64,000 nt of DNA from Heliopora coerulea (lineage: Eukaryota > Cnidaria > Anthozoa > Scleralcyonacea > Helioporidae): NCBI GenBank assembly GCA_030142905.1, contig JASJOG010000215.1:1-64000 (forward strand). Direction: 5' to 3'. Positions 16,427 through 54,720 of the stretch are shown in pieces. Position 1 is the first letter of the stretch. Each line of letters starts with the position of its first letter. Below the pieces are notes generated by a model. It had not been told where the DNA came from. It saw only the letters and a list, made by a program, of their open reading frames with translations, and ran no database searches. The translations under genes and the position numbers were made by a program.

Positions 16427-16450
16427 ATTCGTGACTCTTCCTGAAACATG

Positions 16451-16658: not shown

Positions 16659-17066
16659 TGTCTTGCCCCATTCTCTGAAAATAGTATTTGACTGCAGATT
16701 CGTTCTTTCGTCTTCTATCTGGTTAATATTCAGCCAACGTGAGCTCCGGGACCTTTTACTCTCTCCAGTATAAGTGAAGCAACAGGATTTATATTCTACT
16801 TTGTACACAACTCCTGTAATTTGTGCATCTGACGGCAGATCTTTTGGCTGACGAAAAATATTGGCTAAGGTTAAAAACGGTTTGTACTCTTTGTACACGG
16901 AACCCCTTTGACGTATTGATGTTGTATCTGCAATAAATTTACAGGATGTGTTTAGCTGTGATGAATTTTCCATGGTGCCGTGACTTACACCTTCTATAAA
17001 TTTTGATGTACGGCCATTTATTCTAAGATCGTTCAAAACCTTGTATTTTTTTTTCTTGTCTTTCAC
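16659..17066 (-). pseudogene. PLE-3 copy A, GIY-YIG endonuclease remnant
   Basis: The minus-strand frame reads FLTLANIFRQPKDLPSDAQI, then GVVYKVEYKSCCFTYTGESK. This is the linker and GIY-YIG core of a Penelope-like element (xYK...C..C...YIGES..), with Cys-Cys in place of the usual spaced pair and degenerate residues afterwards. No reverse transcriptase is present. The downstream part was displaced to 11313-11572 by the Kolobok insertion. It is about as decayed as copy B at 24.3-24.7 kb. Confidence 0.75.
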
Positions 17067-24690: not shown

Positions 24691-25226
24691 ACTCATCACG
24701 AGATCAATTACTATTTTGACAGCCGTCACTTTACTTTGTACTGCAATGTGCGTGTCAAACAATAGACTTTTATTTGTGTGAGTAACTTTTCAGTAAATTC
24801 CGAGCGCCACCTCTATGTCTGTAAGTACTGTGCACATACTGTTGAGAAATGCAATTGTTGCATTATCTTCGGAGTCTGAATCCAACTCGACGGTAAACTG
24901 TATGTACAGATTTATTGAACTCAAGTATAATGCAGGAGGTTCTTCACACCAATGCGCTCGGGAGATGAATTAAAATGACCGACATACCGTCGCAACCAAC
25001 GCACCAGAACTAATGTTGTTTCGAAAGCAATGGATTCAATTTTTTGCATAATCAGTTCTGCTAAAAGTGCACTTACTAATGAACCCGCAGCATGTCCAGC
25101 AGTCTGGTGCTAATTATCTCCTTCACATGAACACCGTTAAACAATTATCAAAACAATGAACTATACACCAAAATTTCACAACAAAGTCTGCCGTCCATTC
25201 ACAAAAAAGAATCACCGTCCAAACCA
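24691..25226. other. no gene seen
   Basis: AT-rich, without recognisable coding. If the ballast-type exon to its right belongs to a transposon, the rest of that element should lie here, but no further exon or left terminus was identified. Confidence 0.3.
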
Positions 25227-25466
25227 TCATACCAGTTTAAGTTGTCCAGTCGGCGTTTCAATAGCCTGTTCAATTTCTTCGTCAAAAACCAAAATCTCAT
25301 CGTCATCATCAGGTTGTCTTACTGGTTCAAATTGATACGGTGTCACCCCCAAATCGTCAATCGGCTCGGCAATGTTGTGCTTATTCAAGCTCTCTGTATC
25401 GTTTTCCTCAGAGTTACTTGAACTTGATGACCAGCTTTTATCACTGGTTGTTAAATCCACATACAC
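25227..25466 (-). pseudogene. first exon of a second ballast-type gene, isolated
   Basis: The minus frame is serine- and acid-rich (SSSSSNSEENDTES), then GVTPYQFEPVRQ and DDDDEILVFDEE. It has the same layout as exon 1 of the transposon-borne gene at 11789 (acidic serine-rich leader, then FVPYQDEPLADSDEEN). PYxFEP leaders are common in cnidarian ballast-domain proteins. A GT follows QLKL, as expected for a donor. The zinc-binding second exon was not found. It may be the relic of a second Kolobok-type element whose end is at 25758. Confidence 0.45.
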
Positions 25467-25734
25467 GTTATAAGAATCCTACTAACCAAGGGAGTCAAAC
25501 AACCATGCTAATTGCTAAACGCAATAAAGCAATAGAAGCTAAACACTCAACTGAAGTCACACTCGAGACACCGCTGATTTTAGGCGCCCGCCGACAGAGA
25601 GAAAATAGCGGCGCTGTATTTCAAAATTTTCCATTTGCTTCATTGCTTATCTCTCGTCAATGAATGACGGCTGGAGAAATATATTTAGGGCTTCCATTTT
25701 TTTGTAATATAGATAAAAATTCATATAGATAAAA

Positions 25735-25758
25735 ATTCATTGGAGTGGCAGTTCCCCT
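25735..25758. repeat. possible transposon terminus next to TTAA
   Basis: The sequence ends GGAGTGGCAGTTCCCCT and is followed by TTAA (25759-25762). Read inward it starts AGGGGAACTGCCACTCC, which looks like a Kolobok or piggyBac-type end. No left end was found, so it is tentative. Confidence 0.35.
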
Positions 25759-26049
25759 TTAAAACAACTGTTGTTAAGTACCAGGAAAAGAAATCCCAAA
25801 ACTTGGGTAAAAGTTCTAAAAAGCTTTCACTTGACCACGTCCACAGTTAATGGAACTGGAATAGATGTAAACAGAGGAATCAAATAGAAAGATGCAATTG
25901 CTTCACCTGTGTCGACCTTCTGTGCACTCACAAATTCTCAAAACTCTCTTCTTATCTTGACAGAATTTTTACTCCCACCACAGAGACGTTTAAAGAGAGA
26001 GAAGCCAAATACTTTGACAACTGGTAGGTCAGCTATCACATACAACTAT

Positions 26050-27050
26050 TAATTGGTCGTAAAACAATTCTCGTAGACGCTTCCTCTTCAATGCTAAAAT
26101 GGTCGTGTTCAGAAATTAAGGGGACCTTATTGATTTTCGGAATAGCATAAAATCAGACTGTACTTGAGTCGAAAGGTCTTAATTTGCGGTACTCTGATTT
26201 CGACAAGTTTCCTCATTTTCGTGCTTTCAAAAGCTTTTCTTCCAGTTCTATTTCCGTCTTCCTTGTCGGATTCTTTTATCCGTAATCTTTTCGTACATCT
26301 CCTGTTAAAGCATTTGAACACGTGCTCCACATAGTTTTGTTCAGAACAGTCGAGTTTCCTTTATCCGCCTTTATCATTAAAATACTGTTATCAGCCCTGA
26401 GATCAATACCTGTCTCTCTTGTCGAGTAAAATTCTGCTTTAGCGCAGTTCTTGGTTCTTTAACGGTGCTTTTAGTTCTGCTCGATCGGCGTATTACTCCC
26501 AAAAAAGCGTAAAAGATTTTTTTTGGATTGAAAAATCTCGATGATTGTTTCTGAAGTATCGGGCATTTTTTCTTAAGTATTGTGGATAGTTCGAATTTCT
26601 TTCTAAAGAAGTTTTTGTCATATGCCGTTGCTGACTTCTCTAACACTGCAACCTCTTACGTTTCCGACTGTTGCCAAGTTACGAGAAGGAAAAAATTGTT
26701 CTCAACCTCACCACCACAGAAACTCGTTCCTACAGCATTTCTTGAAGTGGCACGAAGTTCAGCAAATCTCTAGGAAAAATATCTGCATATTATCGAAACG
26801 TGATCACGATTTTTTGCATTCGACATTAATTTTAACAAATTTGGATTTCAGATTTGGACTGTTTTTGTTTTTAATTTCGGAATTTTTCGAAATACCCTTC
26901 GCTTTTTCTAGTATATTATCCTTTTTGTCAGATGGTAAATTACTTGAGCCATGTTCCACCGAACTAACGATTTCTTTAAATGGTATTCGTCTAGGCGTCA
27001 TTAAAAAATTGAGTCCTTTTCAAAGTAAACAAATTTCAATATTTTAAATT
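26050..27050 (-). pseudogene. PLE-2, N-terminal and early RT region, decayed
   Basis: The minus frames read KGLNFLMTPRRIPFKEIVSS, then DKKDNILEKAKG, and after several shifts ADNSILMIKADKGNSTV (the DKG motif of Penelope-like proteins), then LSKSEYRKLRPFDSST and FYAIPKINK (the LPKxHK region), ending with IVLRPINS near 26050. The RT catalytic motifs are absent. It lies downstream, in element orientation, of a PLE-2 GIY-YIG end at 27430-27960, as in the tandem layout usual for PLEs. Confidence 0.75.
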
Positions 27051-27383
27051 CCCTTTGAGACGTACTAAGTACTCACCACTTTCCTGACTAGTTGACTTTT
27101 TGAATTTCTTATACGAAAAATCGTATTAGACAATCGTATCATGTATATTGGCCTTAAAATTTTCTGGATTTGTTGAATTTATTATGATCAATTAGAGCTT
27201 ATGTAACAAAAATAAGTCACCAAAATGTATGATATAAATGAAGAAAACGGAACCGAAGCTTGTCTTGTATTTTTTAAATGTTGCGCCTTTCCCTCGACTT
27301 TTTTAGAAGTATTAGCATGGTAGAATAAAGTCATCTTGAGAACTCAAGATATGAGTCAATGCAAGATAAAACTATAGTTGGAA

Positions 27384-35812: not shown

Positions 35813-36490
35813 GTTTTTGAAACAAGATGCTCCATCACTAAGTCACGTATTAGGCAGGATTACACTCAAGATCTGCACGGCCATTTAAAAGATTTTTGAT
35901 ACTGTGAATACGTAGTCGTACGCTAGAGGCAGCCAAATGTTCAATATGGACTGATACGGGCTCATTGCGAATTTTAACACATAACTGTAAATAGCTGAAA
36001 TTCCGTTTCCATCACATATGTTGTAAAATGTTTACAAACTGAAACGAAAGCTAAGACTCTATGTTCAGGGTGAGAATTAGATCTCAAAGGTGAGATAATT
36101 GATCGACTATGCATTGAAATATAACGAATACAACATAATATTTGCAATATTTACCAACATGAATGATACAAGTAACTAACCATCCGTTTTATAGCACGAA
36201 CCATTGTCTAGGTGTCTCTACCTGATTAGAAAGTCAAAATACTATTTTAAGCAAATTTGCTTGTAAATTTTCAAAAGTTTTTAGGCGGCTGAAAATCTAA
36301 ACATCTTCAACTTCTCTTTGCGTTAGCCTGGCATTCTGGTTACTCAAAACTGGAGTAATATTTAAAATGAAGTGCTATGTACATAGGCAGTTCTGAACGA
36401 AGACGATCAGAGATAGAACTCTTCCAAAACGCGAGAGAACAAGATGCTGCCTAAGTACTTTGTTCTCTCGATTTTTGGCAGACTGTTAAC
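35813..36490. other. no gene; left flank of PLE-1 array
   Basis: Single-copy AT-rich sequence up to the 12-bp direct repeat. It differs from the sequence right of the array, so the array joins two distinct flanks. Confidence 0.4.
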
Positions 36491-36502
36491 TTTAAACTTT
36501 TT
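36491..36502. repeat. target-site duplication, left copy (12 bp)
   Basis: TTTAAACTTTTT, identical to 48643-48654 on the other side of the array. The outermost base at each junction can also be read as element, so the duplication is 10-12 bp. Confidence 0.85.
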
Positions 36503-36744
36503 AAAGTAAATGGTTTGAACCTGGGAGAATCGTGACATGTTTGAGGAAGTTGATCGTCCAGGTTAGTGTAGTCTTGAGAAAGACTGTTGGTTGAAGTGAC
36601 TGACGTTTCGACAGCCTTAGCGGCGGTCATCTTCAGAGTCAAAAGGAGAGTAAAGGTCAGGTTCGCCTGTATTTGTATCTGGCTCGTCCGTGATAAGTGG
36701 GCGGTTGTATTAGTCATGGAGGTGTGATATTTGGCGAGAAGCAA
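36503..36744 (-). pseudogene. PLE-1 partial unit L3 (leader only)
   Basis: Outermost fragment of the left arm: the start of a third unit (first 80 or so codons of the frame plus hammerhead), ending at TTTACTTTA where the host flank begins. In element orientation this is the 3' end of the tandem. Confidence 0.85.
36598..36640 (-). ncRNA. hammerhead ribozyme core, PLE-1 unit L3
   Basis: Same sequence as the copy described at 43224-43266. Confidence 0.78.
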
Positions 36745-36792
36745 TGGGTGTGGTTGTGTAGGCGTTAATTATCAGTTTGTCGAAGTGTAAGT

Positions 36793-39402
36793 CTATTGGC
36801 TGCTCGCACGTTTGACTTTGTGAATTAGTCGTTTGTAAGGTCCCGGTAATTGTTGTGATCGGTTTAATGGATTTTGTTCTAAGTTCGTATACCAGCTTTC
36901 TAGTGTGAGTCGCTGTTTGTAGTTGGTGCTGTACGTAATGCATTTTGCCGAATCCCAGTCAATGTTGTGTTTGGTTTGTCGGTGGTGTTCGGCAATGTGG
37001 TTGGTTTTGTCTCCGTTTTTTGTCGCTCGTTTGTGTTCTGTGAGTCGTATATTTAAGTTTCTGCTAGTCTCACCTATATAAGTGGCTTGGCAGTCGGAGC
37101 AATTAATTTTGTAAATTGCACCTTGTCTTTCGTGCGGTTGTTCTCTGTCCTTAACGTTAGTCAGTACATGTCGTAAAGTTGTGATGGGTTTGTGCGCTAC
37201 TCGTATGTTGTATGGTCGTAAGATACGCGAGATAATCTCAGACGTACCTTTTATGTAGGGTATCGTTGCTGTAGTTGTTGTCGGACTGTTGTTTTTGTCG
37301 CGTTCATTGTCTTTGTAAGTGTTAAGTTTGATGAAGTCAGAGTTATAGTTGTTTTTGTGGAAAACGCATTGTAGGTAGTCATTTTCTTGGCGTAGAGCGT
37401 TGGGTGAGTTACAAATGAGTTGTGCGCGTCTCGTCAATGTTTTGATGGTGGTAGCTTTGTGTGAGGTTGGATTGTACGACGATTGGTCAAGTAGTCTGTC
37501 AGTATGCGTTGGTTTCCTGTAGACAGTGGTCTGTAGTTTGTTATTGTCACGACTTACCAAACAGTCAAGGAACGGAATAGCTCCGTCTTCTTCAATTTCT
37601 TTGGTAAATTGTATGTGACTGTTCTGTTCGTTAATGTGTTTGTGAAACTCGTCAATCTCGTCTTCGGGTAGTGCAGTAATCGTGTCGTCAACGTAACGAA
37701 ACCAAAAAGGTAACGTGTGTTTGTAAGTTGCAAGAGCTCGTTCCTCTATGGATTGCATTACAATTTCAGCAACCACAACAGAAACGGGTGAGCCCATTGC
37801 CGTGCCATGTAACTGTTTGTAGTGTTTACCGTTGTATTGAAAGTAAGTTGATGTGAGACAAAGTTCCAGTAGTTCCACGATGTCCCCTGTAGGTAAAGGA
37901 AGTGCGTCAGTAAATTCGTTGATGGCAGTTTTGGTGCATTCTAGCGCCAGTTGAAGCGGAATACTGGTAAACAGTGATTTCACGTCAAAAGACACTAGCT
38001 TGTGGTTGTGTGGTATTTGTACTGTTTTGAGATTGTTGATGAAGTTTTCAGTCGATCGTAGTCTATGTTGTGACTTGTTGGTTAGTGGTTGCAGTATGGT
38101 TGTTAAGTATTTGGAAAGTTCGTAAGTAGGCGACCCACAGAACGAAACTATAGGTCGCATGGGTATTTGTGGCTTGTGAAGTTTCGGTAGTCCGTACAGC
38201 TTTGGTGATCGCGGTACCGAACACCTGAGTCGATAGTAGGTTTGTTGAGTGATCGTGTTAGTTTTTCTCATTGAGAAAATTTTGTTGTTAAGTTTTCGTT
38301 GAAGTGATGGTGCAGGGTCTCGTTTAAGTAGTTCGTAGGTTTGTTTGTCGTTAACTAGTTCGTCCATTTTGTCGTAGTAATCGGTCTTGTCCATAACAAC
38401 AGTAACGCGTCCTTTGTCTGCTGGTAGTATGACAATGTTTTCGTCATGTTTTAGTCGTTTGAGTGCTTGTTTTTCGACTGTCGTCAAGTTAGTATCACGT
38501 ATAGAGGCCGATTGTACGGTGGAGGCGACCCTACTCCTGATCTCGTCTTTTGTTGCCTCTGCCAAATCTCTTTGAGAAGCTAAGACAGCCTCGACACTCG
38601 ATATAATCGCCTCAGTCGGTATATGTTTGGGTGTTATAGAGTGTTTTAGTCCGTAGGATAGTAATCGAGTTTCAGTTTCGTCTAAAGGGCGCGAGGAAAT
38701 ATTCTTGACCCAGTTATCGTCATGCTTTTGTCGTTTACGTGTTCTGCTGCGTTGTAATCGTTCAAGTTTCTGTTGGTATTTCGCTCGATATTTTGTTTCG
38801 TTTTTGAGAGCTCGTTTGTCAGCAATGGTTTGTACAGTAGAAAGTAAGTCGGCACTCACGTTTGTTGGTATCAGTTGTCTCAGCTTGTCCAGTCTTCGTT
38901 GCTGTTGGTTTTTGTAGAAGTTGAGTCGTCTGTGGCAGTCGTTAATCCGCGCTCGGATCAGTCGTCTGCTGGTGGAGTTGACGATCTGAATAGCCTCTTG
39001 TGTGTTCAACGGGGACTTAATTCTAAGTCCTGCGGGAACGAGACCAAAATCCTTGCAGCGGTGGTTGAACCAGAGTTGTTGGCGAGTACGTCTGACCTTG
39101 CTTGCGAAACGGATGTAGTCGTTGGCAAGCTGTTCGCTCTGTCGTCCAAATGATCGTAATAAAGTAAATGGTTTGAACCTGGGAGAATCGTGACATGTTT
39201 GAGGAAGTTGATCGTCCAGGTTAGTGTAGTCTTGAGAAAGACTGTTGGTTGAAGTGACTGACGTTTCGACAGCCTTAGCGGCGGTCATCTTCAGAGTCAA
39301 AAGGAGAGTAAAGGTCAGGTTCGCCTGTATTTGTATCTGGCTCGTCCGTGATAAGTGGGCGGTTGTATTAGTCATGGAGGTGTGATATTTGGCGAGAAGC
39401 AA
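36793..39402 (-). CDS. PLE-1 reverse transcriptase/GIY-YIG protein, unit L2 (full length)
   Basis: The open frame of 869 codons is identical to units R2 and R3. It begins at a TTG; the first ATG is codon 10 and the next is codon 39, which lies inside the hammerhead, so the true start is uncertain. Residues 80-300: basic, helical N-terminal region. DKG motif at 327-332 (PADKGR), LPKLHK at 405-410, RT motif A FDVKSLF at 472-478, motif B GTAMGSPVS at 533-541, catalytic YVDD at 570-573, RT thumb to about 700. The GIY-YIG endonuclease is at about 760-850: IYK at 763-765, CSDC at 768-771, YIGETSR at 775-781, RLTEHKR, and catalytic Glu at 835 (LESWY). No stops or shifts. Function: target-primed reverse transcription with its own endonuclease. 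Confidence 0.93.
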   Translation of the reverse strand: MLLAKYHTSMTNTTAHLSRTSQIQIQANLTFTLLLTLKMTAAKAVETSVTSTNSLSQDYTNLDDQLPQTCHDSPRFKPFTLLRSFGRQSEQLANDYIRFASKVRRTRQQLWFNHRCKDFGLVPAGLRIKSPLNTQEAIQIVNSTSRRLIRARINDCHRRLNFYKNQQQRRLDKLRQLIPTNVSADLLSTVQTIADKRALKNETKYRAKYQQKLERLQRSRTRKRQKHDDNWVKNISSRPLDETETRLLSYGLKHSITPKHIPTEAIISSVEAVLASQRDLAEATKDEIRSRVASTVQSASIRDTNLTTVEKQALKRLKHDENIVILPADKGRVTVVMDKTDYYDKMDELVNDKQTYELLKRDPAPSLQRKLNNKIFSMRKTNTITQQTYYRLRCSVPRSPKLYGLPKLHKPQIPMRPIVSFCGSPTYELSKYLTTILQPLTNKSQHRLRSTENFINNLKTVQIPHNHKLVSFDVKSLFTSIPLQLALECTKTAINEFTDALPLPTGDIVELLELCLTSTYFQYNGKHYKQLHGTAMGSPVSVVVAEIVMQSIEERALATYKHTLPFWFRYVDDTITALPEDEIDEFHKHINEQNSHIQFTKEIEEDGAIPFLDCLVSRDNNKLQTTVYRKPTHTDRLLDQSSYNPTSHKATTIKTLTRRAQLICNSPNALRQENDYLQCVFHKNNYNSDFIKLNTYKDNERDKNNSPTTTTATIPYIKGTSEIISRILRPYNIRVAHKPITTLRHVLTNVKDREQPHERQGAIYKINCSDCQATYIGETSRNLNIRLTEHKRATKNGDKTNHIAEHHRQTKHNIDWDSAKCITYSTNYKQRLTLESWYTNLEQNPLNRSQQLPGPYKRLIHKVKRASSQ
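39256..39298 (-). ncRNA. hammerhead ribozyme core, PLE-1 unit L2
   Basis: Mirror image of the copy at 43224-43266 across the array centre. Confidence 0.78.
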
Positions 39403-39450
39403 TGGGTGTGGTTGTGTAGGCGTTAATTATCAGTTTGTCGAAGTGTAAGT

Positions 39451-41259
39451 CTATTGGCTGCTCGCACGTTTGACTTTGTGAATTAGTCGTTTGTAAGGTC
39501 CCGGTAATTGTTGTGATCGGTTTAATGGATTTTGTTCTAAGTTCGTATACCAGCTTTCTAGTGTGAGTCGCTGTTTGTAGTTGGTGCTGTACGTAATGCA
39601 TTTTGCCGAATCCCAGTCAATGTTGTGTTTGGTTTGTCGGTGGTGTTCGGCAATGTGGTTGGTTTTGTCTCCGTTTTTTGTCGCTCGTTTGTGTTCTGTG
39701 AGTCGTATATTTAAGTTTCTGCTAGTCTCACCTATATAAGTGGCTTGGCAGTCGGAGCAATTAATTTTGTAAATTGCACCTTGTCTTTCGTGCGGTTGTT
39801 CTCTGTCCTTAACGTTAGTCAGTACATGTCGTAAAGTTGTGATGGGTTTGTGCGCTACTCGTATGTTGTATGGTCGTAAGATACGCGAGATAATCTCAGA
39901 CGTACCTTTTATGTAGGGTATCGTTGCTGTAGTTGTTGTCGGACTGTTGTTTTTGTCGCGTTCATTGTCTTTGTAAGTGTTAAGTTTGATGAAGTCAGAG
40001 TTATAGTTGTTTTTGTGGAAAACGCATTGTAGGTAGTCATTTTCTTGGCGTAGAGCGTTGGGTGAGTTACAAATGAGTTGTGCGCGTCTCGTCAATGTTT
40101 TGATGGTGGTAGCTTTGTGTGAGGTTGGATTGTACGACGATTGGTCAAGTAGTCTGTCAGTATGCGTTGGTTTCCTGTAGACAGTGGTCTGTAGTTTGTT
40201 ATTGTCACGACTTACCAAACAGTCAAGGAACGGAATAGCTCCGTCTTCTTCAATTTCTTTGGTAAATTGTATGTGACTGTTCTGTTCGTTAATGTGTTTG
40301 TGAAACTCGTCAATCTCGTCTTCGGGTAGTGCAGTAATCGTGTCGTCAACGTAACGAAACCAAAAAGGTAACGTGTGTTTGTAAGTTGCAAGAGCTCGTT
40401 CCTCTATGGATTGCATTACAATTTCAGCAACCACAACAGAAACGGGTGAGCCCATTGCCGTGCCATGTAACTGTTTGTAGTGTTTACCGTTGTATTGAAA
40501 GTAAGTTGATGTGAGACAAAGTTCCAGTAGTTCCACGATGTCCCCTGTAGGTAAAGGAAGTGCGTCAGTAAATTCGTTGATGGCAGTTTTGGTGCATTCT
40601 AGCGCCAGTTGAAGCGGAATACTGGTAAACAGTGATTTCACGTCAAAAGACACTAGCTTGTGGTTGTGTGGTATTTGTACTGTTTTGAGATTGTTGATGA
40701 AGTTTTCAGTCGATCGTAGTCTATGTTGTGACTTGTTGGTTAGTGGTTGCAGTATGGTTGTTAAGTATTTGGAAAGTTCGTAAGTAGGCGACCCACAGAA
40801 CGAAACTATAGGTCGCATGGGTATTTGTGGCTTGTGAAGTTTCGGTAGTCCGTACAGCTTTGGTGATCGCGGTACCGAACACCTGAGTCGATAGTAGGTT
40901 TGTTGAGTGATCGTGTTAGTTTTTCTCATTGAGAAAATTTTGTTGTTAAGTTTTCGTTGAAGTGATGGTGCAGGGTCTCGTTTAAGTAGTTCGTAGGTTT
41001 GTTTGTCGTTAACTAGTTCGTCCATTTTGTCGTAGTAATCGGTCTTGTCCATAACAACAGTAACGCGTCCTTTGTCTGCTGGTAGTATGACAATGTTTTC
41101 GTCATGTTTTAGTCGTTTGAGTGCTTGTTTTTCGACTGTCGTCAAGTTAGTATCACGTATAGAGGCCGATTGTACGGTGGAGGCGACCCTACTCCTGATC
41201 TCGTCTTTTGTTGCCTCTGCCAAATCTCTTTGAGAAGCTAAGACAGCCTCGACACTCGA
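39451..41259 (-). CDS. PLE-1 protein, unit L1, 5'-truncated at the palindrome centre
   Basis: The frame equals residues 268-869 of the full protein and is open to its TAG at 39451-39453. It lacks the N-terminal region but keeps DKG, all RT motifs and GIY-YIG. The unit is cut at TCGAGTGTCGAG (element reading), exactly where the opposite arm is cut. Any product would need a start from internal codons. Confidence 0.85.
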   Translation of the reverse strand, partial: SSVEAVLASQRDLAEATKDEIRSRVASTVQSASIRDTNLTTVEKQALKRLKHDENIVILPADKGRVTVVMDKTDYYDKMDELVNDKQTYELLKRDPAPSLQRKLNNKIFSMRKTNTITQQTYYRLRCSVPRSPKLYGLPKLHKPQIPMRPIVSFCGSPTYELSKYLTTILQPLTNKSQHRLRSTENFINNLKTVQIPHNHKLVSFDVKSLFTSIPLQLALECTKTAINEFTDALPLPTGDIVELLELCLTSTYFQYNGKHYKQLHGTAMGSPVSVVVAEIVMQSIEERALATYKHTLPFWFRYVDDTITALPEDEIDEFHKHINEQNSHIQFTKEIEEDGAIPFLDCLVSRDNNKLQTTVYRKPTHTDRLLDQSSYNPTSHKATTIKTLTRRAQLICNSPNALRQENDYLQCVFHKNNYNSDFIKLNTYKDNERDKNNSPTTTTATIPYIKGTSEIISRILRPYNIRVAHKPITTLRHVLTNVKDREQPHERQGAIYKINCSDCQATYIGETSRNLNIRLTEHKRATKNGDKTNHIAEHHRQTKHNIDWDSAKCITYSTNYKQRLTLESWYTNLEQNPLNRSQQLPGPYKRLIHKVKRASSQ

Positions 41260-41271
41260 GTGTCGAGTGTC
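41251..41271. repeat. centre of the palindromic array
   Basis: The sequence around the centre is CTCGAGTGTCGAGTGTCGAG, in which GAGTGTC occurs twice. In the main register the arms end at 41259 and 41263 with a 3-base spacer (GTG). A second, local register forms a perfect 20-bp palindrome at 41248-41267. Both arms correspond to the same internal element position (38601 on the left, 43921 on the right), so neither extends beyond the other into upstream element sequence. Confidence 0.9.
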
Positions 41272-43071
41272 GAGGCTGTCTTAGCTTCTCAAAGAGATTT
41301 GGCAGAGGCAACAAAAGACGAGATCAGGAGTAGGGTCGCCTCCACCGTACAATCGGCCTCTATACGTGATACTAACTTGACGACAGTCGAAAAACAAGCA
41401 CTCAAACGACTAAAACATGACGAAAACATTGTCATACTACCAGCAGACAAAGGACGCGTTACTGTTGTTATGGACAAGACCGATTACTACGACAAAATGG
41501 ACGAACTAGTTAACGACAAACAAACCTACGAACTACTTAAACGAGACCCTGCACCATCACTTCAACGAAAACTTAACAACAAAATTTTCTCAATGAGAAA
41601 AACTAACACGATCACTCAACAAACCTACTATCGACTCAGGTGTTCGGTACCGCGATCACCAAAGCTGTACGGACTACCGAAACTTCACAAGCCACAAATA
41701 CCCATGCGACCTATAGTTTCGTTCTGTGGGTCGCCTACTTACGAACTTTCCAAATACTTAACAACCATACTGCAACCACTAACCAACAAGTCACAACATA
41801 GACTACGATCGACTGAAAACTTCATCAACAATCTCAAAACAGTACAAATACCACACAACCACAAGCTAGTGTCTTTTGACGTGAAATCACTGTTTACCAG
41901 TATTCCGCTTCAACTGGCGCTAGAATGCACCAAAACTGCCATCAACGAATTTACTGACGCACTTCCTTTACCTACAGGGGACATCGTGGAACTACTGGAA
42001 CTTTGTCTCACATCAACTTACTTTCAATACAACGGTAAACACTACAAACAGTTACATGGCACGGCAATGGGCTCACCCGTTTCTGTTGTGGTTGCTGAAA
42101 TTGTAATGCAATCCATAGAGGAACGAGCTCTTGCAACTTACAAACACACGTTACCTTTTTGGTTTCGTTACGTTGACGACACGATTACTGCACTACCCGA
42201 AGACGAGATTGACGAGTTTCACAAACACATTAACGAACAGAACAGTCACATACAATTTACCAAAGAAATTGAAGAAGACGGAGCTATTCCGTTCCTTGAC
42301 TGTTTGGTAAGTCGTGACAATAACAAACTACAGACCACTGTCTACAGGAAACCAACGCATACTGACAGACTACTTGACCAATCGTCGTACAATCCAACCT
42401 CACACAAAGCTACCACCATCAAAACATTGACGAGACGCGCACAACTCATTTGTAACTCACCCAACGCTCTACGCCAAGAAAATGACTACCTACAATGCGT
42501 TTTCCACAAAAACAACTATAACTCTGACTTCATCAAACTTAACACTTACAAAGACAATGAACGCGACAAAAACAACAGTCCGACAACAACTACAGCAACG
42601 ATACCCTACATAAAAGGTACGTCTGAGATTATCTCGCGTATCTTACGACCATACAACATACGAGTAGCGCACAAACCCATCACAACTTTACGACATGTAC
42701 TGACTAACGTTAAGGACAGAGAACAACCGCACGAAAGACAAGGTGCAATTTACAAAATTAATTGCTCCGACTGCCAAGCCACTTATATAGGTGAGACTAG
42801 CAGAAACTTAAATATACGACTCACAGAACACAAACGAGCGACAAAAAACGGAGACAAAACCAACCACATTGCCGAACACCACCGACAAACCAAACACAAC
42901 ATTGACTGGGATTCGGCAAAATGCATTACGTACAGCACCAACTACAAACAGCGACTCACACTAGAAAGCTGGTATACGAACTTAGAACAAAATCCATTAA
43001 ACCGATCACAACAATTACCGGGACCTTACAAACGACTAATTCACAAAGTCAAACGTGCGAGCAGCCAATAG
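41263..43071 (+). CDS. PLE-1 protein, unit R1, 5'-truncated at the palindrome centre
   Basis: Mirror of unit L1, with residues 268-869 of the full protein and all catalytic motifs. The frame can be read from GTG at 41260 in the spacer. It ends with TAG at 43069-43071, and 48 bases later the frame of the next unit opens in the same phase. Confidence 0.85.
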   Translation, partial: SSVEAVLASQRDLAEATKDEIRSRVASTVQSASIRDTNLTTVEKQALKRLKHDENIVILPADKGRVTVVMDKTDYYDKMDELVNDKQTYELLKRDPAPSLQRKLNNKIFSMRKTNTITQQTYYRLRCSVPRSPKLYGLPKLHKPQIPMRPIVSFCGSPTYELSKYLTTILQPLTNKSQHRLRSTENFINNLKTVQIPHNHKLVSFDVKSLFTSIPLQLALECTKTAINEFTDALPLPTGDIVELLELCLTSTYFQYNGKHYKQLHGTAMGSPVSVVVAEIVMQSIEERALATYKHTLPFWFRYVDDTITALPEDEIDEFHKHINEQNSHIQFTKEIEEDGAIPFLDCLVSRDNNKLQTTVYRKPTHTDRLLDQSSYNPTSHKATTIKTLTRRAQLICNSPNALRQENDYLQCVFHKNNYNSDFIKLNTYKDNERDKNNSPTTTTATIPYIKGTSEIISRILRPYNIRVAHKPITTLRHVLTNVKDREQPHERQGAIYKINCSDCQATYIGETSRNLNIRLTEHKRATKNGDKTNHIAEHHRQTKHNIDWDSAKCITYSTNYKQRLTLESWYTNLEQNPLNRSQQLPGPYKRLIHKVKRASSQ

Positions 43072-43119
43072 ACTTACACTTCGACAAACTGATAATTAAC
43101 GCCTACACAACCACACCCA

Positions 43120-45729
43120 TTGCTTCTCGCCAAATATCACACCTCCATGACTAATACAACCGCCCACTTATCACGGACGAGCCAGATACAAATACAGGCG
43201 AACCTGACCTTTACTCTCCTTTTGACTCTGAAGATGACCGCCGCTAAGGCTGTCGAAACGTCAGTCACTTCAACCAACAGTCTTTCTCAAGACTACACTA
43301 ACCTGGACGATCAACTTCCTCAAACATGTCACGATTCTCCCAGGTTCAAACCATTTACTTTATTACGATCATTTGGACGACAGAGCGAACAGCTTGCCAA
43401 CGACTACATCCGTTTCGCAAGCAAGGTCAGACGTACTCGCCAACAACTCTGGTTCAACCACCGCTGCAAGGATTTTGGTCTCGTTCCCGCAGGACTTAGA
43501 ATTAAGTCCCCGTTGAACACACAAGAGGCTATTCAGATCGTCAACTCCACCAGCAGACGACTGATCCGAGCGCGGATTAACGACTGCCACAGACGACTCA
43601 ACTTCTACAAAAACCAACAGCAACGAAGACTGGACAAGCTGAGACAACTGATACCAACAAACGTGAGTGCCGACTTACTTTCTACTGTACAAACCATTGC
43701 TGACAAACGAGCTCTCAAAAACGAAACAAAATATCGAGCGAAATACCAACAGAAACTTGAACGATTACAACGCAGCAGAACACGTAAACGACAAAAGCAT
43801 GACGATAACTGGGTCAAGAATATTTCCTCGCGCCCTTTAGACGAAACTGAAACTCGATTACTATCCTACGGACTAAAACACTCTATAACACCCAAACATA
43901 TACCGACTGAGGCGATTATATCGAGTGTCGAGGCTGTCTTAGCTTCTCAAAGAGATTTGGCAGAGGCAACAAAAGACGAGATCAGGAGTAGGGTCGCCTC
44001 CACCGTACAATCGGCCTCTATACGTGATACTAACTTGACGACAGTCGAAAAACAAGCACTCAAACGACTAAAACATGACGAAAACATTGTCATACTACCA
44101 GCAGACAAAGGACGCGTTACTGTTGTTATGGACAAGACCGATTACTACGACAAAATGGACGAACTAGTTAACGACAAACAAACCTACGAACTACTTAAAC
44201 GAGACCCTGCACCATCACTTCAACGAAAACTTAACAACAAAATTTTCTCAATGAGAAAAACTAACACGATCACTCAACAAACCTACTATCGACTCAGGTG
44301 TTCGGTACCGCGATCACCAAAGCTGTACGGACTACCGAAACTTCACAAGCCACAAATACCCATGCGACCTATAGTTTCGTTCTGTGGGTCGCCTACTTAC
44401 GAACTTTCCAAATACTTAACAACCATACTGCAACCACTAACCAACAAGTCACAACATAGACTACGATCGACTGAAAACTTCATCAACAATCTCAAAACAG
44501 TACAAATACCACACAACCACAAGCTAGTGTCTTTTGACGTGAAATCACTGTTTACCAGTATTCCGCTTCAACTGGCGCTAGAATGCACCAAAACTGCCAT
44601 CAACGAATTTACTGACGCACTTCCTTTACCTACAGGGGACATCGTGGAACTACTGGAACTTTGTCTCACATCAACTTACTTTCAATACAACGGTAAACAC
44701 TACAAACAGTTACATGGCACGGCAATGGGCTCACCCGTTTCTGTTGTGGTTGCTGAAATTGTAATGCAATCCATAGAGGAACGAGCTCTTGCAACTTACA
44801 AACACACGTTACCTTTTTGGTTTCGTTACGTTGACGACACGATTACTGCACTACCCGAAGACGAGATTGACGAGTTTCACAAACACATTAACGAACAGAA
44901 CAGTCACATACAATTTACCAAAGAAATTGAAGAAGACGGAGCTATTCCGTTCCTTGACTGTTTGGTAAGTCGTGACAATAACAAACTACAGACCACTGTC
45001 TACAGGAAACCAACGCATACTGACAGACTACTTGACCAATCGTCGTACAATCCAACCTCACACAAAGCTACCACCATCAAAACATTGACGAGACGCGCAC
45101 AACTCATTTGTAACTCACCCAACGCTCTACGCCAAGAAAATGACTACCTACAATGCGTTTTCCACAAAAACAACTATAACTCTGACTTCATCAAACTTAA
45201 CACTTACAAAGACAATGAACGCGACAAAAACAACAGTCCGACAACAACTACAGCAACGATACCCTACATAAAAGGTACGTCTGAGATTATCTCGCGTATC
45301 TTACGACCATACAACATACGAGTAGCGCACAAACCCATCACAACTTTACGACATGTACTGACTAACGTTAAGGACAGAGAACAACCGCACGAAAGACAAG
45401 GTGCAATTTACAAAATTAATTGCTCCGACTGCCAAGCCACTTATATAGGTGAGACTAGCAGAAACTTAAATATACGACTCACAGAACACAAACGAGCGAC
45501 AAAAAACGGAGACAAAACCAACCACATTGCCGAACACCACCGACAAACCAAACACAACATTGACTGGGATTCGGCAAAATGCATTACGTACAGCACCAAC
45601 TACAAACAGCGACTCACACTAGAAAGCTGGTATACGAACTTAGAACAAAATCCATTAAACCGATCACAACAATTACCGGGACCTTACAAACGACTAATTC
45701 ACAAAGTCAAACGTGCGAGCAGCCAATAG
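43120..45729 (+). CDS. PLE-1 reverse transcriptase/GIY-YIG protein, unit R2 (full length)
   Basis: 869-codon frame identical to unit L2, where motifs are listed. The TTG at 43120 is the first codon of the frame; candidate ATGs are at 43147 and 43234. Stop TAG at 45727-45729. Unit length 2658 is a multiple of three, so consecutive units share one frame, separated only by TAG and TGA-TAA. Confidence 0.93.
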   Translation: MLLAKYHTSMTNTTAHLSRTSQIQIQANLTFTLLLTLKMTAAKAVETSVTSTNSLSQDYTNLDDQLPQTCHDSPRFKPFTLLRSFGRQSEQLANDYIRFASKVRRTRQQLWFNHRCKDFGLVPAGLRIKSPLNTQEAIQIVNSTSRRLIRARINDCHRRLNFYKNQQQRRLDKLRQLIPTNVSADLLSTVQTIADKRALKNETKYRAKYQQKLERLQRSRTRKRQKHDDNWVKNISSRPLDETETRLLSYGLKHSITPKHIPTEAIISSVEAVLASQRDLAEATKDEIRSRVASTVQSASIRDTNLTTVEKQALKRLKHDENIVILPADKGRVTVVMDKTDYYDKMDELVNDKQTYELLKRDPAPSLQRKLNNKIFSMRKTNTITQQTYYRLRCSVPRSPKLYGLPKLHKPQIPMRPIVSFCGSPTYELSKYLTTILQPLTNKSQHRLRSTENFINNLKTVQIPHNHKLVSFDVKSLFTSIPLQLALECTKTAINEFTDALPLPTGDIVELLELCLTSTYFQYNGKHYKQLHGTAMGSPVSVVVAEIVMQSIEERALATYKHTLPFWFRYVDDTITALPEDEIDEFHKHINEQNSHIQFTKEIEEDGAIPFLDCLVSRDNNKLQTTVYRKPTHTDRLLDQSSYNPTSHKATTIKTLTRRAQLICNSPNALRQENDYLQCVFHKNNYNSDFIKLNTYKDNERDKNNSPTTTTATIPYIKGTSEIISRILRPYNIRVAHKPITTLRHVLTNVKDREQPHERQGAIYKINCSDCQATYIGETSRNLNIRLTEHKRATKNGDKTNHIAEHHRQTKHNIDWDSAKCITYSTNYKQRLTLESWYTNLEQNPLNRSQQLPGPYKRLIHKVKRASSQ
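43224..43266 (+). ncRNA. hammerhead ribozyme core of PLE-1, unit R2
   Basis: GACT (43224-43227), core CTGAAGA (43228-43234), helix II from GAC-C-GCC pairing with GGC-T-GTC (43236-43254, one mismatch), GAAA (43255-43258), CGTC with predicted cleavage after 43262, then AGTC (43263-43266) pairing with GACT as helix I. CUGANGA and GAAA are the hammerhead invariants. Helix III is reduced to the palindromic ACGT, a form thought to work as a dimer in PLEs. PLE-2 (27384-27424) has the same architecture with compensating changes in helices I and II, which supports the fold. It overlaps the N-terminal part of the open frame. Confidence 0.82.
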
Positions 45730-45777
45730 ACTTACACTTCGACAAACTGATAATTAACGCCTACACAACCACACCCA

Positions 45778-48387
45778 TTGCTTCTCGCCAAATATCACAC
45801 CTCCATGACTAATACAACCGCCCACTTATCACGGACGAGCCAGATACAAATACAGGCGAACCTGACCTTTACTCTCCTTTTGACTCTGAAGATGACCGCC
45901 GCTAAGGCTGTCGAAACGTCAGTCACTTCAACCAACAGTCTTTCTCAAGACTACACTAACCTGGACGATCAACTTCCTCAAACATGTCACGATTCTCCCA
46001 GGTTCAAACCATTTACTTTATTACGATCATTTGGACGACAGAGCGAACAGCTTGCCAACGACTACATCCGTTTCGCAAGCAAGGTCAGACGTACTCGCCA
46101 ACAACTCTGGTTCAACCACCGCTGCAAGGATTTTGGTCTCGTTCCCGCAGGACTTAGAATTAAGTCCCCGTTGAACACACAAGAGGCTATTCAGATCGTC
46201 AACTCCACCAGCAGACGACTGATCCGAGCGCGGATTAACGACTGCCACAGACGACTCAACTTCTACAAAAACCAACAGCAACGAAGACTGGACAAGCTGA
46301 GACAACTGATACCAACAAACGTGAGTGCCGACTTACTTTCTACTGTACAAACCATTGCTGACAAACGAGCTCTCAAAAACGAAACAAAATATCGAGCGAA
46401 ATACCAACAGAAACTTGAACGATTACAACGCAGCAGAACACGTAAACGACAAAAGCATGACGATAACTGGGTCAAGAATATTTCCTCGCGCCCTTTAGAC
46501 GAAACTGAAACTCGATTACTATCCTACGGACTAAAACACTCTATAACACCCAAACATATACCGACTGAGGCGATTATATCGAGTGTCGAGGCTGTCTTAG
46601 CTTCTCAAAGAGATTTGGCAGAGGCAACAAAAGACGAGATCAGGAGTAGGGTCGCCTCCACCGTACAATCGGCCTCTATACGTGATACTAACTTGACGAC
46701 AGTCGAAAAACAAGCACTCAAACGACTAAAACATGACGAAAACATTGTCATACTACCAGCAGACAAAGGACGCGTTACTGTTGTTATGGACAAGACCGAT
46801 TACTACGACAAAATGGACGAACTAGTTAACGACAAACAAACCTACGAACTACTTAAACGAGACCCTGCACCATCACTTCAACGAAAACTTAACAACAAAA
46901 TTTTCTCAATGAGAAAAACTAACACGATCACTCAACAAACCTACTATCGACTCAGGTGTTCGGTACCGCGATCACCAAAGCTGTACGGACTACCGAAACT
47001 TCACAAGCCACAAATACCCATGCGACCTATAGTTTCGTTCTGTGGGTCGCCTACTTACGAACTTTCCAAATACTTAACAACCATACTGCAACCACTAACC
47101 AACAAGTCACAACATAGACTACGATCGACTGAAAACTTCATCAACAATCTCAAAACAGTACAAATACCACACAACCACAAGCTAGTGTCTTTTGACGTGA
47201 AATCACTGTTTACCAGTATTCCGCTTCAACTGGCGCTAGAATGCACCAAAACTGCCATCAACGAATTTACTGACGCACTTCCTTTACCTACAGGGGACAT
47301 CGTGGAACTACTGGAACTTTGTCTCACATCAACTTACTTTCAATACAACGGTAAACACTACAAACAGTTACATGGCACGGCAATGGGCTCACCCGTTTCT
47401 GTTGTGGTTGCTGAAATTGTAATGCAATCCATAGAGGAACGAGCTCTTGCAACTTACAAACACACGTTACCTTTTTGGTTTCGTTACGTTGACGACACGA
47501 TTACTGCACTACCCGAAGACGAGATTGACGAGTTTCACAAACACATTAACGAACAGAACAGTCACATACAATTTACCAAAGAAATTGAAGAAGACGGAGC
47601 TATTCCGTTCCTTGACTGTTTGGTAAGTCGTGACAATAACAAACTACAGACCACTGTCTACAGGAAACCAACGCATACTGACAGACTACTTGACCAATCG
47701 TCGTACAATCCAACCTCACACAAAGCTACCACCATCAAAACATTGACGAGACGCGCACAACTCATTTGTAACTCACCCAACGCTCTACGCCAAGAAAATG
47801 ACTACCTACAATGCGTTTTCCACAAAAACAACTATAACTCTGACTTCATCAAACTTAACACTTACAAAGACAATGAACGCGACAAAAACAACAGTCCGAC
47901 AACAACTACAGCAACGATACCCTACATAAAAGGTACGTCTGAGATTATCTCGCGTATCTTACGACCATACAACATACGAGTAGCGCACAAACCCATCACA
48001 ACTTTACGACATGTACTGACTAACGTTAAGGACAGAGAACAACCGCACGAAAGACAAGGTGCAATTTACAAAATTAATTGCTCCGACTGCCAAGCCACTT
48101 ATATAGGTGAGACTAGCAGAAACTTAAATATACGACTCACAGAACACAAACGAGCGACAAAAAACGGAGACAAAACCAACCACATTGCCGAACACCACCG
48201 ACAAACCAAACACAACATTGACTGGGATTCGGCAAAATGCATTACGTACAGCACCAACTACAAACAGCGACTCACACTAGAAAGCTGGTATACGAACTTA
48301 GAACAAAATCCATTAAACCGATCACAACAATTACCGGGACCTTACAAACGACTAATTCACAAAGTCAAACGTGCGAGCAGCCAATAG
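45778..48387 (+). CDS. PLE-1 reverse transcriptase/GIY-YIG protein, unit R3 (full length)
   Basis: Third complete 869-codon frame, identical in translation to R2 and L2. It has no counterpart in the left arm, which is one unit shorter. All RT and GIY-YIG motifs are present. Confidence 0.93.
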   Translation: MLLAKYHTSMTNTTAHLSRTSQIQIQANLTFTLLLTLKMTAAKAVETSVTSTNSLSQDYTNLDDQLPQTCHDSPRFKPFTLLRSFGRQSEQLANDYIRFASKVRRTRQQLWFNHRCKDFGLVPAGLRIKSPLNTQEAIQIVNSTSRRLIRARINDCHRRLNFYKNQQQRRLDKLRQLIPTNVSADLLSTVQTIADKRALKNETKYRAKYQQKLERLQRSRTRKRQKHDDNWVKNISSRPLDETETRLLSYGLKHSITPKHIPTEAIISSVEAVLASQRDLAEATKDEIRSRVASTVQSASIRDTNLTTVEKQALKRLKHDENIVILPADKGRVTVVMDKTDYYDKMDELVNDKQTYELLKRDPAPSLQRKLNNKIFSMRKTNTITQQTYYRLRCSVPRSPKLYGLPKLHKPQIPMRPIVSFCGSPTYELSKYLTTILQPLTNKSQHRLRSTENFINNLKTVQIPHNHKLVSFDVKSLFTSIPLQLALECTKTAINEFTDALPLPTGDIVELLELCLTSTYFQYNGKHYKQLHGTAMGSPVSVVVAEIVMQSIEERALATYKHTLPFWFRYVDDTITALPEDEIDEFHKHINEQNSHIQFTKEIEEDGAIPFLDCLVSRDNNKLQTTVYRKPTHTDRLLDQSSYNPTSHKATTIKTLTRRAQLICNSPNALRQENDYLQCVFHKNNYNSDFIKLNTYKDNERDKNNSPTTTTATIPYIKGTSEIISRILRPYNIRVAHKPITTLRHVLTNVKDREQPHERQGAIYKINCSDCQATYIGETSRNLNIRLTEHKRATKNGDKTNHIAEHHRQTKHNIDWDSAKCITYSTNYKQRLTLESWYTNLEQNPLNRSQQLPGPYKRLIHKVKRASSQ
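45882..45924 (+). ncRNA. hammerhead ribozyme core, PLE-1 unit R3
   Basis: Exact repeat of 43224-43266, one period (2658) downstream. Confidence 0.8.
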
Positions 48388-48435
48388 ACTTACACTTCGA
48401 CAAACTGATAATTAACGCCTACACAACCACACCCA

Positions 48436-48642
48436 TTGCTTCTCGCCAAATATCACACCTCCATGACTAATACAACCGCCCACTTATCACGGACGAGCCA
48501 GATACAAATACAGGCGAACCTGACCTTTACTCTCCTTTTGACTCTGAAGATGACCGCCGCTAAGGCTGTCGAAACGTCAGTCACTTCAACCAACAGTCTT
48601 TCTCAAGACTACACTAACCTGGACGATCAACTTCCTCAAACA
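48436..48642 (+). pseudogene. PLE-1 partial unit R4 (leader only)
   Basis: Start of a fourth unit, cut after CTTCCTCAAACA, where the 12-bp target repeat and right flank begin. It ends 35 bases earlier in element coordinates than the left outer end. Confidence 0.85.
48540..48582 (+). ncRNA. hammerhead ribozyme core, PLE-1 unit R4
   Basis: Exact repeat of 43224-43266, two periods downstream. With this copy the transcribed tandem would be bounded by ribozymes. Confidence 0.8.
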
Positions 48643-48654
48643 TTTAAACTTTTT
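48643..48654. repeat. target-site duplication, right copy (12 bp)
   Basis: TTTAAACTTTTT, identical to 36491-36502. Confidence 0.85.
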
Positions 48655-50100
48655 CTACCTATCCTGGATACGATCGATAATTACGCAATAGTTAAGCCCA
48701 GCAATATTCTGAGACTTATGGAAATTTAGCGACTAACAAACGTTCTCATGCATTTCGGTATACATGACACAGCTAGACTCTTCTACTATTCGCTAAATGT
48801 TGACAAATATTTGCATGAAGTACAGGTATATATCAACTAATGTTTCTCAAAACAACTTGATCTCTTGACAAAATCTTTACTAACAACAAATTGACAGATT
48901 TCACTCTGAAAAAAAAGTTAACGCGTCAATAAAGACGTTGGTTTAGAAGAGGCCAAAAGTGCTCAAGATCCGCCTGGAGAATCTAAAATGTCAACAGGCA
49001 GAAACATTCCTGTATTGATATCTGTTGCTCTTCTCCATTAAATATTTCTTTTCTGACTTTTCAGAGACCTATGGGGTTGTCATTCTAACAATCACAGTTA
49101 ATTGATAAAAATTGTGTGCGTTGTCATAATTTCTGTTCAGCATTGTGACGTGCGACTGATGGCATTTACCATCTTATGTCTGCGTTCTTTTTTGTCTCTC
49201 ATTCAACCTCATCCAATTGCAAACAACAGGGGTATTTAAGGTCCAATTAAAAAGGTTGGTGTCATGCATGGTGACTAGCGACGTGGCTCCTTCGTTCTCC
49301 GTTCCGCACTGATCGTCTATGTTCTTTCAGCCTTTTCCTCTAAAAGCTCGCAGAGCTATTGGCGCAGCTGATTTTGTAGACGACAGTCTGTCTTATGTAT
49401 GGTATTGGTCTTATTCTTTACGTCAACTGGCGCATCACGTAAGAATAGAATATTGGTTTTATTAATTGCCACTTTGATATTGTAGCATTGAACTCTCATT
49501 AAGTTTATACAGAAGTATTTTGCACTGAAGGTACAGTTGCGATGGCCTGCCGTTCTTATTCTTTACCAGTGTTTGAACGTTCGCATCTCGTTTTTACAGC
49601 ACGTTCCATAGACTTTTCTCTAAATAATTGCGTATAATTCTTTACACGTGTTTGTCTACACTTTTGGCAGGATATTTTCAGCAAACGACTCACGTTACTT
49701 TATAAAATATTGTAACTGCGTTCAAGTTAACCAACAGAAAATTGTTTCCTTTTTCTTTCATGTAAGAGGTGGAAAAAATTAGAAAGCGTTTTGATATCTT
49801 GAGGAAAACGAGCTGAAACCCAGTGTTGAAGCGAATTCCCCGTTTCACAAAAGCTATTCCCATTTTTATTTTTCGTCGGCTATAGCCTCGTGTTTTAAAT
49901 ACGAAAAACACTCTTACTCGTTTATTAAATATTACAAAGCAAGGCATAATGAACTACCAGACAGTACAACCAACATATTCAAAGTAACTAACAAATGTAG
50001 TTACAGCGTACGCAGCAATAACCTTAACTATACACTGCCAAAACTCAATACAAATTTTACAAACAAGCAAGATTTAACAATTATTCATCGAAGTGGAGGT
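48655..50100. other. no gene; right flank of PLE-1 array
   Basis: AT-rich single-copy sequence. The minus frame 49690-49947 is unrecognised. Confidence 0.35.
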
Positions 50101-53346: not shown

Positions 53347-53468
53347 CTTCAACAACCACTTAACAAACCACTCCTGCGAATTCTTGTGGACTCCTGCAAA
53401 TTCTTGTGGACTCCTTCTGTGTTCTTCATTTTACAGAAGTGTAGTCGAAATTTAAGTCAAAGGAAGAG

Positions 53469-54720
53469 ATGAAACGTAAAGGAAAAGAAACCTGGGAAGA
53501 CTTTGAGGCAAGAATTGGCATGAAGACGACGGGAAATATTGCCAAAAAATCCGGGATGAAGCCACCGAACGACATCCTTGAGCAAAGGATGTCGCCCACT
53601 ACGTCGGGCCGCCTGAAGAAATATGAACCCTTAGATACACGCGACGTTATCCCGTTCGACGACTCTGGCGAGTTTACCTTAAACAATATCAAAGAAGCTT
53701 GCGAAAAGTTTTACAAAGCTCCAGAAGGGTCATGTGATATCCTTGCATCCGACAGAGGGCCCTCGTGTACGAAATTAGAGCAGCTAAAAGGTAAAAAGGT
53801 TTTCTTTATTCGATTTATTCCTCTTGGCGATGTGGATATAAAAGATCAAGCGCAAAATTTGCCTCCAAAGATGGGTTTATCAGTTCCTATCAACCTCTCA
53901 AACTCACCTGATAAATCGAGCGCTGCACCAAAGTCCCTGTCGATCAGTCAATTACTTAAAGCTGGGAAACTTGTCAAACCATCTAAACAAAGTCTGGTTG
54001 ATATAGAGCTCGAAGCATTTGATATAGAAAGAATGAAATGGATTAAAAAAGGTTTGTATCACTTTGATGTTAAAGAAGATAAATTTGCTAGTGGAGCGTT
54101 TAGAGATGCATTTGAAGCTACAGTCACTAATCTGTAAGTAAAGCCTGGTCTATGGGTTCTAAAACAGTATCAAGAACAAGCTGTAGATGCCATCACAAGC
54201 GACCTCAACATGACACTGGAGGACCATACCAGGAAACAAGTTCAAATGCACATGGCAGCAAGGAGTATTACAAAGTTATTTTCTATGAAGGTGCCATCAG
54301 AATTTGGTGAGACCTTCCAGTGCAATAAAGCATACTATGCAGTTTATAAAGATCAGCCTGTAACAGTTGAGGAATTTGTGGACGGAGAGTTTCACAAATA
54401 TGTAAACAATGATGGAAGTTGCATGATCCCCCCCTAGTGAAGAATTTCATTCAATCTATAAGAAGGCAGAATGTCTGCTGCATTACAGCTACATTAAGTT
54501 CCAAAAGAAGTTAATGCTGCTTGATATCCAGAGATCCTCAAACACCTTATATGATCCAGAAATTGCCACGTCTGATTTGGTTAACAGAAATGAGGAGTTG
54601 GGTAGAGATGAAATTTACCATTGTGCAGGAAATTTATCAACCATTGGAATCCAGCACTTTATCTCACAGCTCCATCAGTGTAATGAATATTGTGACATGA
54701 TTGACCTGGAACTATTATAA
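53469..54720 (+). pseudogene. alpha-kinase-domain protein carried in the transposon (one stop, one frameshift)
   Basis: The frame opens at ATG 53469 with a basic leader, then a conserved-looking segment (FTLNNIKEACEKFYKAPEGS; KGKKVFFIRFIPLG). The alpha-kinase domain begins near residue 175: KFASGAFRDAFEAT (nucleotide-loop region of MHCK/eEF2K-type kinases); in the same frame after a TAA at 54135-54137, GLWVLKQYQ (catalytic Lys strand); QVQMHMAARSI; VTVEEFVDGEFHKYVNNDG; after a one-base shift in a C7 run (54428-54434), LMLLDIQ and LYDPEIA; finally GNLSTIGIQHFI and LHQCNEYCDM, the zinc His/Cys site. DIQR replaces the usual DIQG. Alpha-kinases phosphorylate Ser/Thr and are structurally distinct from conventional kinases. 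The gene sits wholly between the TIRs. The stop and shift suggest a pseudogene, though a homopolymer error could explain the shift. Confidence 0.85.

Follow-up and report, generated by a model that had tools for sequence, protein, structure and literature searches.

The reverse transcriptases (RTs) of Penelope-like elements (PLEs) are telomerase-like. On how these elements complete their insertion, rotifer work in 2013 argued for self-priming (PMC3846280), and a biochemical study in 2024 left open second-strand synthesis and repair (PMC11167929). The Penelope elements of bdelloid rotifers (Pen2a_Av and others) are described as having a single open reading frame (ORF) for RT and endonuclease (EN), direct pseudo-long terminal repeats (pLTRs) and an adjacent inverted pLTR, with palindromes at the inverted joint, duplications of 8-10 bp and an optional 31-bp tail on one inverted pLTR (PMC3846280). 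The purified protein of the Poseidon element PAc of Anolis carolinensis is reported to cleave and extend both strands in vitro (PMC11167929). The same account gives PAc a pair of neighbouring internal RT start sites, of which the main one lies 111-118 nt into the ORF, an optional tail of 30-40 bp between them, and a hammerhead over the ORF start that cuts 26 nt after the start codon (PMC11167929). For L1, a long interspersed element (LINE), 'dual priming' has been speculated upon, in which complementary DNAs (cDNAs) from the bottom and the top nick form a head-to-head product with one duplication (PMC2837659). This study concerns a PLE array in the first 64,000 nucleotides of Heliopora coerulea contig JASJOG010000215.1 (the whole 64-kb stretch is called the window), together with other copies of its family in the same genome. 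The window array and the sampled inserts very probably arose by target-primed reverse transcription (TPRT) from both target strands ('dual' priming), and this looks like the usual insertion route of the family.

Self-comparison of the window and a script showed that the array consists of two opposed arms, 100% identical, with their 3' ends outward. The PLE unit is 2658 bp, the units stand head-to-tail, and there is no base mismatch between units or arms. The array spans ~12.1 kb (36491-48654) with a single 12-bp duplication at both flanks. The parts are as follows.

36491..36502, no strand: target-site duplication, left copy, TTTAAACTTTTT; T36502 also fits the element
36502..41259, minus strand: left arm, 4758 bp, 1.79 units; the 'tail' arm, 3' end at ORF +129 facing host DNA
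41260..41262, no strand: GTG between the arms
41263..48643, plus strand: right arm, 7381 bp, 2.78 units; the 'no-tail' arm, 3' end at ORF +94 facing host DNA
48643..48654, no strand: target-site duplication, right copy; T48643 also fits the element

An earlier reading of the letters alone (the sequence-only reading) had described exact 2658-bp head-to-tail units in two opposed arms and a 12-bp word on both outer edges (36491-36502, 48643-48654). The units proved correct to the base, and TTTAAACTTTTT is present only at 36491 and 48643 when both strands of the 64 kb are searched. Since the T at either inner edge (36502 and 48643) matches the element too, the duplication is 10-12 bp long. In a narrow search (±2 bases) of 19,864 random breakpoint pairs from the host DNA of the window, no common word exceeded 9 bp. 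The left arm, read in the sense direction, equals the initial 4758 bases of the right arm, and both arms stop on the inside at one identical base, ORF +688. The outer 3' ends lie at ORF +94 (right) and +129 (left) and look like two RT start sites, here called A (no tail) and B (tail). The sequence-only reading had put the two ends within 35 bases of one element position; the distance of 35 nt is exact, but it is not slack round one site, for the ends fall at two preferred positions (56/57 loci are one-tailed, as described below). The number of whole units per arm is taken as assembled; the inversion, the outer edges and the duplication are independent of that count. As a separate observation, the insertion's left edge (36400-36502) forms an imperfect inverted repeat with 43-nt arms (72%), the last 12 bases of which are the duplicated word; this may be a hairpin-prone target.

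The coding and other features within the array are listed by position.

36793..39288, minus strand: intact 831-aa RT + GIY-YIG ORF, left arm
39451..41259, minus strand: 5'-truncated ORF, left arm inner end
41263..43071, plus strand: 5'-truncated ORF, right arm inner end
43234..45729, plus strand: intact 831-aa ORF, right arm; RVT_1; GIY-YIG weak, below the Pfam cut-off
45882..45924, plus strand: hammerhead-ribozyme-like fold over the ORF start, recurring every 2658-bp unit
45892..48387, plus strand: intact 831-aa ORF, right arm, second copy
45985..46020, plus strand: internal counterpart of the segment that separates the two end positions; A lies at 45985 (+94) and B at 46020 (+129) relative to the ORF at 45892

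In total the array carries three complete 831-aa ORFs and two truncated ones. The 831-aa ORF matches RVT_1 (E 3.3e-9) and contains an RYVDD motif. The C-terminal GIY-YIG match is weak (residues 723-774, E 0.002, 18.8 bits against a Pfam gathering score of 22.6); in this region C730, C733, Y737, G739, E740, R748, E751 and H752 are invariant across 11 aligned sequences. The protein is ~75% identical to its best protein matches, the named ones being from Porites lutea, Oculina patagonica and Stylophora pistillata. Judged by its sequence, the element is a canonical (EN+) PLE, with a single RT ORF, a weak GIY-YIG, tandem and inverted copies with an optional tail, and a short duplication. Scans of viral contigs and genome contigs found no DNA-level relatives, and a search of solved structures gave no match. 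For 8/120 listed relatives (P0002, P0003, P0005, P0006, P0008, P0013, P0014, P0022) the longest contig is 2828-2829 bp, just above one unit, as would be expected if tandem arrays collapse during assembly.

The family survey covered one family in one genome (G000; 429.8 Mb, 769 contigs) and 66 loci, window included, out of probably the order of a thousand. The anatomy, the rule of one tail per insert, the duplications, the joints and the variants shared between arms were observed directly in these loci, 57 of which are evaluable two-armed outward inserts. Unit positions are numbered with the ATG at 1972, site A at 2065 and site B at 2100. A genome search with one unit generated 1818 candidates, of which 30 were scored; with the window these make a set of 31 loci that is biased to long copies. 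26/31 were two-armed with both 3' ends outward. In 26/26 of these, one end fell within unit positions 2062-2070 and its partner within 2090-2104, and the flanks had a common word of 11-17 bp in 25/26 (8 bp in locus C557). The tail side was the left in 11 and the right in 9 of 20 long-set loci. A bias toward a longer tail arm (15/20, P 0.04) was dropped, as the no-tail arm was the longer in 6 further loci (15/26).

A second set was drawn independently of copy length; its mark was a 22-mer that lies immediately upstream of site A, with at most one mismatch allowed. The mark occurs 2306 times in the genome, copies inside tandem units included, and the reversed control gave 0. Among the first 100/2306 sites, neighbours within 15 kb were arranged outward in 27 cases, inward in 1 and on the same strand in 2, and the median gap between the marks of the 27 outward pairs was 179 bp. 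The census comprised 25/27 outward pairs plus the first 10 unpaired sites (35 loci). 31/35 were evaluable and two-armed, 7 of them from 'unpaired' sites whose partner arm is without the 22-mer. One arm with a tail and one without were found in 30/31, and a duplication of at least 9 bp in 30/31.

Taken over both sets, exactly one tail arm (~+129) is present in 56/57 two-armed loci, the other arm usually ending at ~+94; with an independent 50:50 choice at each end, one-tailed loci would make up about half. The duplication is at least 9 bp in 55/57, mostly 12-14 bp, C557 with its short word being an exception. In a wide search of 51 inserts, the own flanks had at least 9 bp in common in 49 and at least 11 bp in 48, compared with 13 and 0, respectively, of 2550 combinations of mispaired left and right flanks. 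Target symmetry is weak (P 0.018). The palindromic inserts examined range from ~120 bp to 12 kb, and most from the census are a few hundred bases long. The sequence-only reading held that the whole palindrome went in as one event, with both nicked strands priming and the two cDNAs joined at their 5' ends, and the 56 further two-armed loci support it. The window locus is not a special event, however; the insert is the largest examined example of the family's usual product.

The arms were compared in 23 loci where they overlap, and 26 differences were found in 29,705 positions between arms of the same locus. In 13/23 loci each arm is more similar to its partner than to all the other arms sampled, private variants often being the reason, and in 4/23 (C557, C568, C64, C87) they are without differences, which gives too little resolution. 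The overlap comprises at least 448 unit positions (448-2658) in 19/23 loci and the whole left arm in the window. The arms of one locus thus usually appear to derive from the same source copy, which fits one RNA molecule or two RNAs of one source. The sequence-only reading had spoken of the same tandem RNA. Of this, the same source stands, with arms mutually closest in 13/23 loci and not so in 6.

Central joints were classified in 51 loci. Microhomology of at least 2 bp is present in 20, filler of at least 6 nt in 20 and of 2-5 nt in 6, and 5 are nearly blunt. 13/20 long fillers are templated, having longer words in common with the adjacent 40 nt than shuffled filler has (P<0.05). We read microhomology and templated filler as polymerase-theta-like joining of two ends, the polymerase being a putative one. 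At the window centre, GTG fits either a 3-nt filler or a single 7-nt slip after TCGA/TCGA annealing of the cDNA ends. A probability of 2.8e-5 was left unused, the sites behind it having been defined from the window itself; the arm lengths reproduced with these sites follow from the same definition. The central fillers of two loci are long, 91 nt and partly templated in L070, 72 nt and of unknown origin in L073.

In the census, 28/62 inner ends fall within unit positions 1950-1970, a short way before the ATG (1972), and we read this cluster as the probable 5' end of the RNA. In 20 long-set loci the inner ends are scattered; the two arms are in the same phase only in the window, 7 bases apart in C344 and 29 in C3. 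The fold over the ORF start has a stem I of GACT/AGTC, CUGAAGA, a stem II and GAAAC-GUC, with a predicted cut 26 nt past the ATG. Its CUGAAGA fits CUGANGA, the hammerhead core motif. Layout and spacing fit a PLE-type hammerhead, but stem III is without a loop and the fold z-score is only -1.47; an Rfam search of the window and of the ORF-start region gave no match. The joint GGTTGAAGT-S-ACTTCAACC was found in 4 loci with different duplications, and in these at least one arm ends exactly at the base after the predicted cut. An inner end at q2001 is present in one arm of 4/31 census loci, the other arm ending at 2001 or 2005 by central-base scoring. We read the q2001 ends as likely hammerhead products, with the near-palindrome at the predicted cut as a confounder.

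These features can be assembled into a scheme in which we infer the RNA template, a protein dimer, the order of steps and the identity of the polymerase. The element protein would nick both target strands ~12 bp apart, and each 3' end with its 12-bp overhang would prime reverse transcription on element RNA. One strand would start at site A (~+94); the start of the other, at site B (~+129), would account for the 'tail'. Copying would proceed on both strands in the direction of the 5' end of the RNA, and the cDNAs would then be joined head to head at their 3' ends by microhomology or by a short stretch that is self-complementary, in many cases with templated filler. The second strands would then be filled in, giving outward arms, one of them tailed, and one duplication. 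An RNA starting near the ORF start would give a mini palindrome of ~250 bp (~110 + 145 bp). A multi-unit (tandem) RNA would give kilobase arms as in the window, because only a second unit puts a start site downstream of the whole ORF. As a source of the tandem units we also weighed rolling-circle copying of a circular RNA, but set it aside; the two arms of the window, with unequal numbers of rounds, end at a common base, which fits the 5' end of a linear RNA or a joint at a palindrome.

Several observations weigh against the dual scheme. The window arms share their inner stop yet differ in length by one unit less 35 bp, which would mean starts in different units or a miscount of units in the assembly. 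5/31 long-set loci are not outward pairs: C179, C390, C62b and C277 are single arms, and the right arm of C468 ends at 237. No host duplication was found in C179, C390, C62b and C468, whose flanks share only 4, 4, 6 and 5 bp, or in C277, where a 9-bp common word lies inside the element. Census site L091 is apparently single. L095 (G000:C13:2002070-2002560) is the sole insert of 57 with a tail on both ends, L079 is without a clear duplication (6-bp word), and the no-tail arm stops before site A in three loci (q2033, 2042 and 2058; L087, L088, L090). In 6/23 loci (C112, C244, C25, C266, C468, C99) the two arms are roughly as divergent as copies taken from separate loci, suggesting either two RNAs or age. 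Finally, 7/20 long fillers are not clearly templated.

The single arm of C179 (L031:925-6390) is ~2 units long, and its inner end runs into ~32 TTAGGG repeats inside the contig, oriented as in telomerase extension of a cDNA 3' end. It is perhaps an orphan cDNA end healed by telomerase.

The inserts follow a simple rule that separates dual priming from self-priming. In the self-priming proposed for rotifer Penelope, the end of a single cDNA or antisense template folds back and is extended along its own strand, which yields an inverted repeat joined head to head (PMC3846280). In its favour, palindromic joints are present here as well, TCGA in the window and AGT-S-ACT in four mini loci, and the arms are nearly identical in most loci. 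As we understand the published description, however, self-priming predicts mirror-equal arms, and those of the window measure 4758 and 7381; nor does it give a reason for a second outer end at an RT start site, when tailed and untailed ends are paired in 56/57 loci. A one-strand hairpin formed from TCGA-CAC-TCGA predicts a sequence other than the one observed at the window centre, and the templated filler at 13/20 filled centres fits the joining of two ends. We regard self-priming as unlikely for these inserts.

Twin priming as described for L1 (PMC2837659) would produce the same arm orientation and a single duplication. In this classical LINE-type route one RNA is split between two cDNAs, the second primer annealing inside the RNA. 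In twin priming the two arms represent complementary parts of one RNA that do not overlap. Here one and the same stretch is present in both arms, as the overlaps given above show, and the outer ends sit at two fixed positions instead of being scattered. The overlap contradicts twin priming unless long tandem RNAs were split at matching phases, and we give this route very little credence. An assembly artefact or later rearrangement (a false inversion, two nested insertions, a miscount of units) deserves a hearing, as the 12.1 kb of 100% identical arms is known from the assembly alone. A false or later inversion would not place both end positions and one duplication at the edges, however, and the same anatomy recurs in the 56 further two-armed loci, of which many are shorter than 500 bp, so that an origin of this kind is equally improbable.

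Dual priming may extend beyond this family, and we would put slightly less than an even chance on a symmetric mechanism that uses both strands, and so differs from LINE TPRT, being the general way in which EN+ Penelope elements integrate. The protein would act as a dimer on a target of weak two-fold symmetry and cut it with nicks staggered by 12 bp, and each protomer would prime from one strand at its own start site, hence one tail per insert. Second-strand synthesis would need no further priming, because the two cDNA 3' ends would prime on each other. Trimming of the RNA by the hammerhead would leave cDNAs that terminate with a near-self-complementary heptamer (AGT-S-ACT). The units would have to be in tandem, since initiation takes place close to the 5' end of the RNA and a monomer would give only a mini palindrome.

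Outside the array the window contains the following.

15950-16546, minus strand: THAP domain
16704-16886, 24330-27058 and 49268-49402, minus strand: decayed relics of other PLEs; 23-42% protein identity, E 6e-8 to 0.01, some weak
17883-18362, plus strand: RT fragment, below the Pfam cut-off
53445-54134, plus strand: exon with matches named TRPM6-like, some with PF02816
55107-55886, minus strand: integrase-core (rva_4) ORF

We take PF02816 to be the alpha-kinase family. Named matches to the exon at 53.4 kb are in Paramuricea, Actinostola and also Ciona, and point to a cnidarian, probably anthozoan, host.

Parts of this anatomy are already published: inverted, duplication-flanked, optionally tailed PLE copies in the rotifer account (PMC3846280), and in vitro extension of both strands from two start sites in the PAc account (PMC11167929). 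A rule of one tail per insert, or the both-strand route as the in vivo default, was not found in the one open-access library searched. If dual priming is true, it would explain inverted PLE copies, the tail on one end only and tandem arrays jointly, it gives concrete predictions for purified PLE protein, and it would provide an endonuclease-bearing retroelement that makes palindromes as its usual product.

Rotifer Penelope and the window element are alike in ORF type, inverted copy, joint palindromes, short duplication and optional tail (PMC3846280). The rotifer inverted pLTRs are given as ~180-220 bp (PMC3846280), whereas the opposed arms here measure up to 4.8 and 7.4 kb. The rotifer authors explain their anatomy by self-priming on an antisense template, and the passages on it contain no rule of exactly one tail (PMC3846280). 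Coral retrozymes carry type I hammerheads in repeats of cnidarian genomes (PMC7229834), where the window element has its hammerhead-like fold. These retrozymes are described as non-autonomous, 200-400 nt long and circular in their RNA form, whereas the window element has an intact RT ORF and arms that can be explained without a circle (PMC7229834). In the L1 data as presented, dual priming is inseparable from twin priming, but here the largely overlapping arms separate the two (PMC2837659). PAc shares with the window element the layout of the hammerhead or hammerhead-like fold, the two start or end sites and the tail between them, and its cleavage and extension of both strands are what the dual scheme proposes here (PMC11167929). 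The PAc results are in vitro only, with second-strand synthesis and repair left to be validated, and the parts of that account on priming report no difference in start site between the strands (PMC11167929).

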